Source: Planctomycetota bacterium (GTDB lineage: Bacteria; Planctomycetota; Phycisphaerae; Phycisphaerales; UBA5793). From it: a stretch of 56,051 nucleotides of DNA. The notes beneath the pieces were generated by a model. The model saw nothing but the letters and a program-made list of their open reading frames with translations. It was not told where the DNA came from and did no database searches. Shown piece after piece: positions 2,212 to 44,375 of the stretch; the stretch's first letter is position 1, and every line of letters starts with the position of its first letter. The DNA lies in assembly GCA_963205185.1 (NCBI GenBank), contig CAUJHZ010000057.1, positions 1 through 56,051 on the forward strand. The letters run 5' to 3'. The translations under genes and the position numbers were made by a program.

Positions 2212-2752
2212 GGCGGCGACCTGCCTTTCCGTAAATGAGCAGCGCGGCGGCAATACCCGCCGCGAAGAAGCATGCGAAGAACACCCAGCTGCTCACCGCC
2301 AGTTGCAGCGAGCCGCTGATGGCGTGGCCCGAGGTGCAGCCGTCTGCCAGTCGCGCGCCAAAGAGCAGCATCACGCCTCCAACAAACGCCGCGGCATAGC
2401 GCAGCGCTTTGCTCGGACCGAAGCGCGCGGCCCAGATGTCCGGCACATGCTCGACCTTGAACGACCGGCCGAGCCACGCCGAGAGCGTGGCCCCGAGCAC
2501 CAGCCCGATGACGAGCATCATCTGCCAGTCGAGGAAGTACTTGCCCTCGGCGAGCATGGTCTTGGCGTAGTACGCATTGTCGCGAACATGCTCGGGTGCG
2601 GCGAGTGACTCGATCGCCCCGGCCATGGAAACGAGGCTGGTGCTCGTGCCCAGCGCCTTGTGCATGAGGCCAAAGGTCACCCACGACAGAACGCCGATGC
2701 CGGCGCCGACGATGTAAGGCGACCAGCGCGACCGTCTCAGGAGATGAACCAT
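2198..2752 (-). CDS. YeeE/YedE-type sulfur permease, first half
   Basis: The protein has 184 residues and several hydrophobic helices. The motif ADGCTSGHAISG contains the conserved cysteine of the YeeE/YedE family, proposed in TsuA to relay thiosulfate through the membrane. It lies between the ArsR-type regulator (42 bp upstream) and the second half-permease, which it overlaps. Such regulator plus paired half-permease sets are common in sulfide and thiosulfate metabolism. The exact cargo is inferred, not shown. Confidence 0.87.
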   Translation of the reverse strand: MVHLLRRSRWSPYIVGAGIGVLSWVTFGLMHKALGTSTSLVSMAGAIESLAAPEHVRDNAYYAKTMLAEGKYFLDWQMMLVIGLVLGATLSAWLGRSFKVEHVPDIWAARFGPSKALRYAAAFVGGVMLLFGARLADGCTSGHAISGSLQLAVSSWVFFACFFAAGIAAALLIYGKAGRRRAQS

Positions 2753-2794
2753 GACCGACTCCTTTCAAACGCCGGCGCGTGGCCGCCGGCTTGC

Positions 2795-3106
2795 CTACCG
2801 CCCGTCGCCGTGCTTGCGAATGCAGGCGAGCAGGTGCTCGGCGTGTGGGTTGATGACTTCGTAGAACACGCGGCGTCTGTCGCGCCGCTGCTGGACAATC
2901 TCGTGCGCCCTCATCTGCGCCAGATGCTGGCTGACGACGGCCTGGGGCAGGTCGAGATCGTCGGCGAGTTGCCCGACGTGGATCGACTCCCCAAGCAGCC
3001 GGTCCACGATGCGCAGGCGCACCGGATGGGCCAGCACGCGCAGCACCGCCGCGGCTCGATCGAGAGTCTCGTCGGCAATGGCTTGGGGCGAGGCGGTTCG
3101 CTGCAT
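2795..3106 (-). CDS. ArsR/SmtB family transcriptional regulator
   Basis: This is a 103-residue winged-helix protein. It has the family hallmarks HPVRLRIVDRLL (about 27-38) and the recognition helix region LDLPQAVVSQHLAQMR (about 51-66), followed by the wing RRDRRRVFYEV. It keeps only one cysteine (C95, HLLACIRK), so the two-cysteine persulfide switch of BigR/SqrR is not evident and a metal-type site is not obvious either. The start ATG is preceded by GAGGACC. It heads the sulfur permease operon and most likely represses it through the site at 3146-3178. Confidence 0.9.
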   Translation of the reverse strand: MQRTASPQAIADETLDRAAAVLRVLAHPVRLRIVDRLLGESIHVGQLADDLDLPQAVVSQHLAQMRAHEIVQQRRDRRRVFYEVINPHAEHLLACIRKHGDGR

Positions 3107-3145
3107 GGGTGGTCCTCGGGGTGCAATCGGCGGGCAATGGTATGC

Positions 3146-3178
3146 GAATATTCAGATATATCAAGTATTCGATATATC
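3146..3178. promoter_or_regulatory. Candidate ArsR operator/promoter
   Basis: A short AT-rich island in otherwise GC-rich DNA, 40-72 bp upstream of the regulator start. It holds the palindrome GAATATTC (3146-3153) followed by two copies of the palindrome GATATATC (3155-3162 and 3171-3178), centres 16 bp apart. ArsR-family operators are typically AT-rich imperfect dyads of this kind. Autoregulation of the regulator-permease operon is an inference from position. Confidence 0.6.
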
Positions 3179-3449
3179 CAGTCGCGCCGGATCAGGAAAA
3201 CGGCCCTGAAGTCGCGGCGCGGGGGGCCCGGCGGACAATCGAGTCCGAAAAGCGCGGCGGGGCGGGAATGCAGCGGCGACCTGGCGCGGTTATAATCCCT
3301 GTTGCTGCCCCGATCGGCCCCAAACGCCGGTCGGAACGGCGGCATCGGACCGGTTCGAGCGGCTGGGGCAGGATCGGTCGCCACCTCGACACACGCAGCG
3401 GTTCGGGAGGCGTCGCCAGGACCGGCCCTGACGATTCAAGGAGTTCATC

Positions 3450-4589
3450 GTGAGCGTTCACACAGCGGGCATGTCGATCAACGCCGTTCACCACGACATC
3501 GGCACCGTCTCGGGTGAAGGGCAGGCCCTTATCGACAAGTTCCTCGATGCGACCATCCGCTTCGAGGCCAGCGATCTCATCGTCAAGTCCGGCGCCTCGC
3601 CCAAGATCCGCCTGCGCGGCGCCCTCAAACCGCTGAAAATCGACCCTGTCACCGAACAGCAGATGTTCCAGATCGCCAAGGACGTGCTCGACGAGAACCA
3701 GTACCAGAGTTTCAAGACGCGCGGCTCGATCGACTTCGCTCACGATTACGACGAAAACAACCGCTTCCGCGTCAACCTGTTCATGGCGCGCGGCAAGCCG
3801 GCCATCGCCGCCCGCCTCGTCACCAGCAAGATCAGAAGGTTCGAAGACCTCTACCTTCCATCCGTCATGTCCGACATCGCCATGAACGCCCAGGGCCTCG
3901 TGCTCCTCTCGGGCGTCACCGGCTCGGGCAAATCGACCACCATTGCGGCGATGCTGCAGTACATCAACGAGCGCAAGCCCGTGCACATCGTCACGATCGA
4001 GGACCCGATCGAATACATCTTCAAGGACGCCAAGGCGTTCGTGAACCAGCGCGAAGTCGGCATCGACTGCCTGGACTTCAACGACGCGCTCCGCGCGCTG
4101 GTGCGCGAGAACCCGGACGTCGTGCTCATCGGCGAAATGCGCGACAAGGAGACGTTTGAAGCGGCCATCCGCGCCGCCGAAACGGGCCACCTCGTGTTCG
4201 GCACCATCCACGCGTCTTCGGCGTGGCAGTCGTTCGGCCGCATCTACGACCTGTTCAATCCCGAGGAGCGCGAGCAGATCCGCAAGCTGCTGGCCTACAA
4301 CCTCCGCGCGATCGTGTATCAGAAGCTGCTGCCCACGCTGCACGAGAACATCGGGCGCATTCCGGCGATCGAGATTCTGATCAACAACGCGCCGGCCCGC
4401 AAATACATCCTCGAAGGCCGCGAGGGCGAACTGCTCGACGTCATCCGCGCCAACAAGGACGCGGGGATGATCGACTTCACGGGCTCGCTGGTGCAACTGG
4501 TCGAGCAGGAGTACATTCACTACAAGGTGGCGCTCGACGCGACTCCGAATCCGGAGGAACTGTCGATGCGCCTCAAGGGCATTACCTGA
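3450..4589 (+). CDS. PilT-like type IV pilus retraction ATPase
   Basis: This 379-residue protein is a hexameric secretion-family ATPase of the PilT/PilU branch. All motifs are intact: Walker A GVTGSGKST (155-163), Asp box TIEDPIEYIF (182-191), Walker B VVLIGEMRD (224-232) and His box GHLVFGTIHASSA (246-258). The N-terminal ASDLIVKSGASPKIRLRG is the usual PilT N-domain. The start is GTG, chosen because AAGGAG lies just upstream. It would power pilus retraction or a related assembly at the inner membrane. Downstream lies a decayed PilB/GspE homologue, suggesting a shared machine. Confidence 0.93.
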   Translation: MSVHTAGMSINAVHHDIGTVSGEGQALIDKFLDATIRFEASDLIVKSGASPKIRLRGALKPLKIDPVTEQQMFQIAKDVLDENQYQSFKTRGSIDFAHDYDENNRFRVNLFMARGKPAIAARLVTSKIRRFEDLYLPSVMSDIAMNAQGLVLLSGVTGSGKSTTIAAMLQYINERKPVHIVTIEDPIEYIFKDAKAFVNQREVGIDCLDFNDALRALVRENPDVVLIGEMRDKETFEAAIRAAETGHLVFGTIHASSAWQSFGRIYDLFNPEEREQIRKLLAYNLRAIVYQKLLPTLHENIGRIPAIEILINNAPARKYILEGREGELLDVIRANKDAGMIDFTGSLVQLVEQEYIHYKVALDATPNPEELSMRLKGIT

Positions 4590-41362: not shown

Positions 41363-41437
41363 CGGGGCGTAGCGCAGCTTGGTTAGCGCGTCTGACTGGG
41401 GGTCAGAAGGTCGGAGGTTCAAATCCTCTCGCCCCGA
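41363..41437 (+). tRNA. tRNA-Pro (anticodon GGG)
   Basis: Acceptor CGGGGCG/CGCCCCG, D-arm GCGC-AGCTTGGTTA-GCGC, anticodon arm TCTGA-CTGGGGG-TCAGA giving GGG, T-arm GGAGG-TTCAAAT-CCTCT, discriminator A; CCA not encoded. Its last 30 bases are repeated perfectly at 41715-41744, 307 bp downstream, on the far side of a GIY-YIG gene. Confidence 0.95.
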
Positions 41438-41441
41438 TTGA

Positions 41442-41696
41442 ATGTTTTGGGTGTACGTGTTGCAGAGTGCAGCGACCGGGCGGCGGTATACGGGCTCGAC
41501 GAGTGATCTTGATCGTCGATTGAAGCAGCACAACTCCGGGCACAGCCCGGCGACGAGGCACGGTGTGCCTTGGAGATTGATCTACCGCGAAGAGTTTCAG
41601 ACCCGAGCGGAGGCCGCTCGGCGCGAACTGTTCTTCAAGACCGGCAAGGGACGTGAGGAACTGGAGCGCCGCATCGACGGCACAGCCCCGGGTTAG
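41442..41696 (+). CDS. GIY-YIG nuclease (URI-type), between two tRNA copies
   Basis: The 84-residue protein is a single GIY-YIG domain of the URI group. WVYVLQ stands at the GIY position, RRYTGST at YIG, then SDLDRRLKQHNSG with the catalytic Arg25 or Arg26, and a C-terminal RAEAARRELFFKTGKG with the metal-binding Glu. The ATG begins four bases after tRNA-Pro with no Shine-Dalgarno, and its stop codon TAG lies inside the next tRNA-like copy (GGTTAGCGCG). Related genes occur as mobile or orphan endonucleases; its target may be the tRNA gene itself. Confidence 0.85.
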   Translation: MFWVYVLQSAATGRRYTGSTSDLDRRLKQHNSGHSPATRHGVPWRLIYREEFQTRAEAARRELFFKTGKGREELERRIDGTAPG

Positions 41697-41747
41697 CGCG
41701 GCCGCCGCGGCGGCAGGTCGGAGGTTCAAATCCTCTCGCCCCGATTC
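41680..41747 (+). pseudogene. Partial duplicate of tRNA-Pro with replaced anticodon arm
   Basis: GGTTAGCGCG (41691-41700) and the 32-bp segment AGGTCGGAGG...CCCCGATT (41715-41746) repeat tRNA-Pro perfectly. Between them the 17-base anticodon arm is replaced by the 14-base palindrome GCCGCCGCGGCGGC. The 5' acceptor strand is missing, so it cannot be a working tRNA. It overlaps the 3' end of the GIY-YIG gene. Confidence 0.85.
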
Positions 41748-41855
41748 GCGTGCAGCGAATAGAGCAGGTGAACAGGGGAAAGAGCCGGCTCGCCCGTGCG
41801 GCGCTCGCGGCCAAGGCCCCATTACCTGCGGTTACCTGATCCCCAGGCAAAAACG

Positions 41856-41911: not shown

Positions 41912-42886
41912 TCAGTCGTTGAAGTCGCGGCCGCGGACGCCGTACTTGGTGGCGCCGTAGTAGTACTGCAGCGGATCGCCGGGCTGGAGCGCCTCGTCGG
42001 TCCAACCCATGCGGTTGGTCAGCGGGATGTACAGCTTCGGGTTGTAGTTTTCGGTGAGCGAGGCGGTGCGCTTGTCGGCGCTGCCGTCGAAGAAGAGCAC
42101 CGTGGCCTGGAGGTCACGCTCGTTGTAGCCGTGGGTCGGCTGCTCGTGGAAAGCGTTGACTTCCCACACGTAGACCTTCTGGGTGGGGAACTTGACTTCT
42201 TCCTTGCGGAGGTAGCGGCGGCCGGGCGTGTTGATGTTCGACGGGCCGTTGTTCGCCTGATTGCTGTTGTTGTAGTGCTGGTTCTCGACGAGGATTTCGC
42301 CGATACGGGCGTCGGTGAACATGGTGGGATCCCAGAACGCCGCATCGGTCATCAGGTAGGAGATGCGGTGAATCGTGGTCTGGAACTGGTCCCGGGTTTC
42401 CTTGGCCTTGACGGAGTAGAAGCGGTCATCGGGGCAGAAGAAGACGTCGTCGTAGACGGCCTTGGAGGTCTCCTGCTTGGCGACGTACTTCGCCATGGCG
42501 CAGAACCAGTAGCGGTTCAGGGCGCCGTAGTGCATGACGCCGGCGCCAAGTTCCGGCGGCCAGCCGAACAGTTCGGCCCACATTGGGCTGAAGTGCGGAC
42601 GGCTGCCCTTGATCAGGCCGCTGTTTTGCGTGAAGATGGTCTCGCAGACGGTGCCGTTGGAGATGACGCCGTTCCACTCCTGGCTGTAGGTTTCCAGGCC
42701 GATGCCGATGTTGCGCAGGTTGCCCAGGCACTTGGTCGCGCGGGCGGCGGCTCGAGCCCGGGCCAGGGCCGGCAGGAGCAGGCCGATGAGCAGGGCGATG
42801 ACGGAGATGACCACGAGCAGTTCGATCAGGGTGAATCCCCGCTTCGATCTGCCCCGCGCGAGGCGTCGTGAGACGTGGCTGAGCAT
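41912..42886 (-). CDS. Type IV prepilin-like (type II secretion pseudopilin-like) protein, copy 2
   Basis: The 324-residue protein has the prepilin-peptidase signal [30 protein letters not shown] (cut after Gly17; Glu at +5). The C-terminal part is a planctomycete-type prepilin head domain ([46 protein letters not shown]). GAAAGGTC precedes ATG. It is a near-duplicate of the gene at 43395. It would assemble in a pilus- or pseudopilus-like structure; the prepilin peptidase is not in this window. Confidence 0.88.
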
Positions 42887-43394: not shown

Positions 43395-44375
43395 TCAGTC
43401 GTTGAAGTCGCGGCCGCGGACGCCGTGCTTGGTGGCGCCGTAGTAGTACTGCAGCGGATCGCCGGGCTGGAGCGACTCATCGGTCCATCCCATGCGGTTC
43501 ATGAGCGGGACGTAGAGCCGCGGATTGTAGTTCTCGGTGAGCGAGGCGGTGCGCTTGTCGGCGCTGCCGTCGAAGAACAGAACCGTGGCCTGGAGGTCGC
43601 GCTCGTTGTAGCCGTGGGTCGGCTGCTCGTGGAAAGCGTTGACTTCCCACACGTAGACCTTCTGGGTGGGGAACTTGACCTCTTCCTTGCGGAGGTAGCG
43701 GCGGCCGGGCGTGTTGATGGTGGACGGGCCGTTGGAGGCCGGATTGCCGTTGCCGTCGTTGTAGTGTTGATTCTCGCTGAGGATTTCCGGCAGGCGGGCC
43801 TCGGTGAACATCATGGGATCCCAGAATGCCGCATCGGTCATGAGGTACGAGATGCGATGGATCATGCGGTTGTACTGATCTCGTGTTTCCTTGGCCCGGA
43901 CGGAGTAGAAGCGGTCATCGGGGCAGAAGAAGACGTCGTCGTAGACGGCCTTGGAGGTCTCCTGCTTGGCGATGTACTTCGCCATGGCGCAGAACCAGTA
44001 GCGGTTGAGCACGCCGTAGTGCATGTTGCCGCTTCCCAGTTCCGTTGGCCAGCCAAAGAGTTGGAGCCACGTCGGTTGGAAATACGGTCTGGTACCGACT
44101 TGCTGCCCACCATTCGGCGTGAAGATCAGTTCGGTCACAGTGCCGTTCGCGACAACGCCATTCCATTCCTGACTGTAGGTTTCCAGACCGATGCCGATGT
44201 TGCGCAGGTTGCCCATGCACTTGGTGGCGCGAGCGGCGGCGCGAGCGCGGGCCAGGGCCGGCAGAAGCAGGCCGATGAGCAGCGCGATCACCGAGATCAC
44301 GACGAGCAGTTCGATGAGGGTGAAGCCTCGCTTGCGGACCGCGCTGGTGTTGAGACTGAGTGGTTTGAAGTGCAT
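43395..44375 (-). CDS. Type IV prepilin-like (type II secretion pseudopilin-like) protein, copy 1
   Basis: The 326-residue paralogue has the same [12 protein letters not shown] signal. The last ~110 residues and [14 protein letters not shown] are almost identical to the 41912 gene, while a middle stretch ([26 protein letters not shown]) is diverged. GAAAGGGGA precedes ATG. A promoter candidate lies ~290 bp upstream. Probably a recent tandem duplicate. Confidence 0.88.

Follow-up and report, generated by a model that had tools for sequence, protein, structure and literature searches.

Why does a gene for an 84-amino-acid (aa) nuclease lie between an intact tRNA gene and a broken copy of the same tRNA? 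We addressed this question in a 56,051-nt stretch of DNA from a Planctomycetota bacterium (contig CAUJHZ010000057.1, assembly GCA_963205185.1), hereafter called the window. A preliminary description made from the sequence alone had reported a GIY-YIG gene between tRNA-Pro and a second, partial tRNA copy, and had proposed that an endonuclease gene copying itself into tRNA genes would leave this arrangement. Our analysis confirmed every element of the observation. The interpretation was supported in part: the gene belongs to an inserted element tied to tRNA genes, whereas cleavage of the tRNA gene by the nuclease and nuclease-driven copying remain inferences. The proposed scope was also too narrow, since some loci duplicate the 5' half of the tRNA and related genes are located in or beside 23S rRNA, RNase P RNA and tmRNA genes.

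Architecture of the tRNA-Pro(GGG) locus

The features of the locus are listed in the table. The GIY-YIG ORF begins four bases after the intact tRNA-Pro(GGG), and its stop codon lies in the D-loop of the second copy. Between the two repeated blocks, the 17-nt anticodon arm (TCTGACTGGGGGTCAGA) is replaced by a perfect 14-bp palindrome, GCCGCCGCGGCGGC. Weaker similarity continues to the left over the 5' strand of the D-arm; the copy is therefore a tRNA lacking its 5' acceptor strand and native anticodon arm. The intact tRNA folds as a cloverleaf (z = -2.5), whereas the copy does not fold better than shuffled sequence (z about 0). The duplication is not attributable to chance, as partial copies were found for 24 of 41 tRNAs near GIY-YIG genes but for none of 15 tRNA-Pro loci of the genus without a GIY-YIG gene.

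Table. Features of the window and of two other loci
Position	Strand	Feature	Basis
41363-41437	+	Intact tRNA-Pro (anticodon GGG), the target gene, still functional in form	ARAGORN; folding
41381-41390 / 41691-41700		Exact repeat GGTTAGCGCG, spacing 310	Repeat search
41408-41439	+	First half of the 32-bp exact direct repeat (variable loop, T-arm, 3' acceptor strand, +2 nt), the donor half	Repeat search
41442-41696	+	Single-domain GIY-YIG nuclease gene, 84 aa (ATG 41442; stop TAG 41694-41696)	PF01541, E = 6e-16
41691-41746	+	Truncated tRNA-Pro copy (D-loop to 3' end), anticodon arm replaced; weak similarity (GGCACAGC..) from about 41683	Repeat search; same architecture at L082-L085, L088, L089 and L091
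41701-41714	.	Palindrome GCCGCCGCGGCGGC in place of the anticodon arm (GTCGCC..GGCGAC in relatives)	Sequence; comparison with relatives
41715-41746	+	Second half of the 32-bp exact repeat, spacing 307	Repeat search
41747-41845	+	Trailer after the copy; resembles the trailer of this genome's tRNA-Pro(CGG); absent from the G003 allele, with which synteny resumes at about 41846	Comparison within the genus
41912-42886	-	Prepilin-like gene downstream of the element, in tandem with the next; syntenic region also present in G003	
43395-44375	-	Paralogous prepilin-like gene, in tandem with the preceding one	
G000:C53:150947-151174 (L002)		Second GIY-YIG gene of the window's genome, inside the 23S rRNA gene at helix 25, bounded by a perfect 20-bp inverted repeat	Rfam; comparison within the genus
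L157: 1152-1860	-	RNase P RNA with a GIY-YIG gene inside one of its stems	Rfam

The protein meets the definition of the GIY-YIG superfamily: Y5, Y16, G18, R26, H30 and E62 were invariant in an alignment of 17 homologues, and these include the conserved Tyr, Tyr, Arg and Glu. An AlphaFold model (pLDDT 89) predicted a bare domain, the nearest solved structures of which were UPF0213 (1zg2), the branched-DNA nuclease Slx1 and, more weakly, I-TevI. This prediction fits recognition of DNA shape, although such recognition is inferred. Comparisons with phage and plasmid sequences gave only distant, mostly partial hits and did not support an origin from either. A conserved tRNA-GIY-aminopeptidase synteny, suggested by the window and genome G085, was also rejected because the two M29 genes are different paralogues.

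Occupation of structured-RNA genes by the family

To determine whether the arrangement is unique, we scanned 84,980 bacterial and archaeal genomes with an alignment of three GIY-YIG proteins, which uses no tRNA information. The scan gave 18 loci (each locus bears an L number here) in Planctomycetota, Verrucomicrobiota, Acidobacteriota, Bacteroidota, Ignavibacteriota, Elusimicrobiota, Gottesmanbacteria and Syntrophobacterales, that is, in seven or more phyla. All 18 lie within 90 bp of a tRNA on the same strand, and all carry partial copies of that tRNA. In 16 loci BLAST detected a direct repeat of tRNA sequence across the gene; in the other two (L086 and L099), inspection of the sequence showed a hairpin-armed copy upstream of the tRNA. 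The targets were tRNAs for Pro, Arg, Asn, Leu, Ser, Gln and Asp. A related locus, L097, is in the cultured host Draconibacterium orientale.

A profile built from 17 sequences hit 182 of 392 Planctomycetota genomes, with up to 13 copies in one genome. Of 29 best-per-genome loci, 17 had a tRNA or tmRNA within 200 bp, with 20 such RNAs on the same strand and none on the opposite strand, whereas none of 30 M29-peptidase control genes had one even within 1.5 kb (Fisher p = 2e-7; a second locus set overlapped the first, so only the first, of 29 loci, was used for the test). However, about a third of the homologues are not near a recognised RNA gene, and most loci come from metagenome-assembled genomes. 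Rfam comparisons placed further members next to tmRNA, inside RNase P RNA (L157) and inside 23S rRNA (L127, L135, L136 and L002). The stem occupied in L157 appears P12-like by eye, and other arms of the same RNA end in palindromes such as CCCCGATTTTATCGGGG. L135 and L136 are two 23S genes of one genome (G222) and differ by a TCCCGATTCGTCGGGA hairpin in a different loop from the GIY-YIG insertion. In L131 and L132, GIY-YIG genes are inserted within genes for S23-like (23S intervening-sequence) proteins. Eight loci (L103, L106, L109, L110, L114, L134, L139 and L149, with the GIY-YIG gene at about position 1500 in each) contain elements of about 300 bp with terminal inverted repeats ACCCCGTTAGAGA..TCTCTAACGGGGT and a single GIY-YIG ORF, several of them inside protein genes (DUF1016-like, PurE-like). 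L139 also has a GIY-less copy of the repeats and a duplicate of the gene end that differs mainly at third codon positions.

The tRNA-linked loci showed two mirror forms. In the downstream form the order is intact tRNA, GIY-YIG gene, palindrome and the 3' part of the tRNA (usually from about position 45 or 58); in the upstream form it is the 5' part of the tRNA (about 1-26), palindrome, GIY-YIG gene and intact tRNA. Some loci (L084, L095 and L116) carry both forms. In clear cases the anticodon arm alone is exchanged for a palindrome, for example GCTGGTTCGCAATCAGC for TCCCGATGTCACATCGGGGA in a tRNA-Ala (L145) or CCAGACTGTCGATCTGG for TCCCGACACTTCGTGTCGGGA in a tRNA-Asp (L160). In L062 (genome G067), a 2.2-kb segment with an ImmA/IrrE-like gene (2352-4577) lies between tRNA-Pro and its GIY-YIG gene, with ACCCCGATTCA repeated at both ends, raising the possibility of a second insertion into the same tRNA end.

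In the tRNA-Pro clade, the hairpin GTCGCC..GGCGAC is shared by Planctomycetota and Verrucomicrobiota, while the 30 nt after it match the adjacent tRNA at 30 of 30 positions in seven of the eight scored loci and at 29 of 30 in the eighth (L089 was left out), and the tRNAs of the other species usually less well. All hairpin positions pair in nine sequences, with one compensatory change of pair; most compensatory changes lie in the T-arm and are inherited from the local tRNA. The palindrome thus belongs to the element and the tRNA arms to the target. In a tree of 88 proteins, target type was clustered (42 changes against a mean of 57.7 in shuffles, 0 of 200 as low), although the alignment is short and leaves many forks unresolved. 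Nine proteins from Planctomycetota and Verrucomicrobiota form one well-spread Pro clade with the window protein, two 23S members pair, and elements with the terminal inverted repeat ACCCCGTTAGAGA group together.

Alleles with and without the insertion

Comparisons within genera showed gain and loss of the element. In the window's genus, genome G003 has the same cysE - tRNA-Pro(GGG) locus at about 90% identity without a GIY-YIG gene or tRNA copy; however, its right border is not clean, as 3.4 kb of other genes lie where the window has 408 bp. G002, of the same genus, also lacks the insertion. In a second genus, G085 has the insertion and G058 does not; the two have an identical tRNA-Pro and 76% identity over 1.6 kb upstream. 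For tRNA-Asn in another family, the tRNA is followed directly by its terminator in G438, G450 and G447, whereas in G425 464 bp containing the GIY-YIG gene stand between them and end in a 14-nt repeat of the tRNA 3' end. G405 is also invaded, and G460 holds a truncated GIY-YIG gene joined to the flank seen in G438. At 23S helix 25, the window's genome (G000) has the inverted repeat around its GIY-YIG gene, its relatives G003 and G001 have short native tips, and G004 has a 40-nt hairpin without an ORF, all with flanks about 99% identical.

The preliminary description had named, as observations that would contradict it, the same gene order without a duplication and the repeat without a GIY-YIG gene. 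Related loci with the gene usually showed the duplication. A pattern search of 392 genomes for Pro-type hairpin copies gave 54 raw hits, and among the 30 read in context only the window had the following T-loop; the strict Pro-type copy was therefore not seen without a GIY-YIG gene in the hits examined.

Possible origin and movement of the element

We consider, with moderate confidence, that the locus is a minimal mobile element of about 0.3-0.5 kb whose only protein is a UPF0213/Slx1-like GIY-YIG nuclease. The comparisons establish insertion at the 3' side of an ancestral tRNA-Pro(GGG) gene, retention of one intact tRNA, a displaced fragment whose palindrome marks the far end and travels with the element, and the recurrence of such insertions at many tRNA and tmRNA genes and inside loops of 23S rRNA and RNase P RNA. 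We infer, rather than demonstrate, that the nuclease is active, that it recognises the hairpin arms of structured-RNA genes (as DNA hairpins or cruciforms) and that it cuts the uninvaded allele. In this view, repair from an invaded copy, paired through the tRNA sequences on both sides, would copy in the GIY-YIG gene and the palindrome, and the recipient would keep one working tRNA because the donor carries an intact tRNA plus a partial one. The palindrome may be the recognised end, a scar or a shield. The model does not explain why the intact tRNA, which keeps the presumed cut site, would not be cut again; only its 3' flank is changed, while the second copy has lost its anticodon arm. The mobile-element reading is strongly supported, and self-mobilisation by the nuclease is likely, though inferred from sequence and predicted structure alone.

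A regenerated tRNA with a displaced fragment is the classical outcome of tyrosine integrases, which could move mini integrative elements in trans with the GIY-YIG gene as cargo. Crossover sites of integrase islands lie in the anticodon loop, T loop or acceptor junction (PMC4383910), and the fragment ends observed here also fall near the anticodon arm or T loop. Nevertheless, we consider this unlikely: the 0.4-0.5 kb segments contain no integrase and share only the GIY-YIG gene, no other gene lies in the inserted segments examined, the family also occupies 23S rRNA and RNase P RNA loops and, with terminal inverted repeats, protein genes, and exact replacement of the anticodon arm by a palindrome is not expected from an integrase. 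Tandem duplication of a tRNA followed by decay, with an unrelated ORF in between, is very unlikely. Although partial tRNA duplicates and pseudo-tRNAs exist in bacteria and the second copy lacks a foldable cloverleaf, the same order recurs at different tRNAs in many phyla always with a GIY-YIG gene, control tRNAs show no copies, loci without the insertion lack both parts, and the palindrome is conserved in sequence and fully paired, which decay would not give. Action of the protein on tRNA or tRNA-like RNA, with the copy as a decoy or as a 3' processing element for its own transcript, is also improbable. The gene is always on the tRNA strand, so that tRNA, nuclease and copy could be co-transcribed, and the copied T-arm keeps its pairing, albeit through changes inherited from the local tRNA; however, the window's copy does not fold better than shuffled sequence, known enzymes of this fold act on DNA, and members in 23S rRNA, RNase P RNA and protein genes have no tRNA copy.

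A further possibility, which we regard as tentative, overlaps with our preferred explanation and cannot yet be separated from it: REP-like hairpins may be the mobile unit, swapped into natural hairpin arms of RNA genes, with the GIY-YIG enzyme as their structure-specific mobilising nuclease, as RAYT is for REPs. Native arms are exactly replaced by palindromes, both at anticodon arms and at the tips of 23S helix 25 in G000 versus G003, G001 and G004. In addition, seven genomes with 5-13 GIY-YIG copies have 11-146 TCCCGA..TCGGGA palindromes against 0-1 in a reversed-pattern control (Spearman 0.53 over 27 genomes and 0.70 over 10 families). However, the correlation is confounded by ancestry, genomes with 3-5 GIY-YIG copies lack the palindromes, and in the window's genome this palindrome is not dispersed.

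REP palindromes with RAYT transposases (PMC2817692, PMC8266576) are the closest palindrome-plus-nuclease analogue, in which a nuclease gene is likewise associated with short GC-rich palindromes; here, palindromes of the TCCCGA type are dispersed in some GIY-rich genomes but not in the window's genome, a GIY-YIG domain was found instead of an HUH Y1 transposase, and the palindromes sit within tRNA copies or RNA-gene loops. Free-standing GIY-YIG homing endonucleases of phages (intronless homing, e.g. the T4 Seg enzymes; see PMC1564403) are similarly small genes beside their presumed targets that spread without an intron into alleles lacking them. Like a homing endonuclease gene, the element has present and absent alleles at the same target site in related genomes. 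It differs from the phage enzymes in that the protein is a bare domain without a DNA-binding extension, has UPF0213/Slx1 as its nearest folds and is associated with structured-RNA genes of bacteria, where a partial target copy with a swapped hairpin is left behind. Unlike tRNA/tmRNA-site islands (Islander, PMC4383910), the element lacks an integrase, is 0.4-0.5 kb instead of kilobases, has a palindrome in place of the anticodon arm, commonly leaves 5' fragments and occupies other target types. Nor was a self-splicing group I or II ribozyme evident around the ORF: no Rfam intron match was found in 39 related loci, which included this genome's 23S copy but not the window locus, where the tRNA is uninterrupted. 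The rRNA cases have partial precedent in 23S intervening sequences and in the GIY-YIG ORFs of non-intron rRNA insertions in CPR bacteria, located, as in this genome's helix-25 copy, at the tip of an rRNA stem (PMC11270868). That study reported rRNA only, did not mention tRNA and judged GIY-YIG to be outside homing. The 2006 survey of the superfamily (PMC1564403) does not describe tRNA linkage in the passages found, and a search of the open-access literature, which cannot exclude an earlier description elsewhere, returned no description of the tRNA-linked form and nothing on palindromes, GIY-YIG and tRNA together.

These findings point to a largely undescribed family of very small selfish DNA. 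It is possible, although we hold this only tentatively, that the family represents a new class of mobile element, in which a bare, shape-recognising GIY-YIG nuclease invades tRNA, tmRNA, rRNA and RNase P RNA genes by exchanging their natural hairpin arms for its own palindromic hairpin and leaves one working copy of the RNA gene, a natural cut-and-rescue drive of only a few hundred base pairs. If the nuclease drives the insertions, this would be among the smallest autonomous mobile elements known, one 84-codon gene plus a hairpin, with targets that are essential and conserved across bacteria. It would help explain the many small GIY-YIG genes of unknown function, some pseudo-tRNAs, and hairpin insertions in rRNA and RNase P RNA, and would give a compact nuclease whose targeting may depend on DNA shape.
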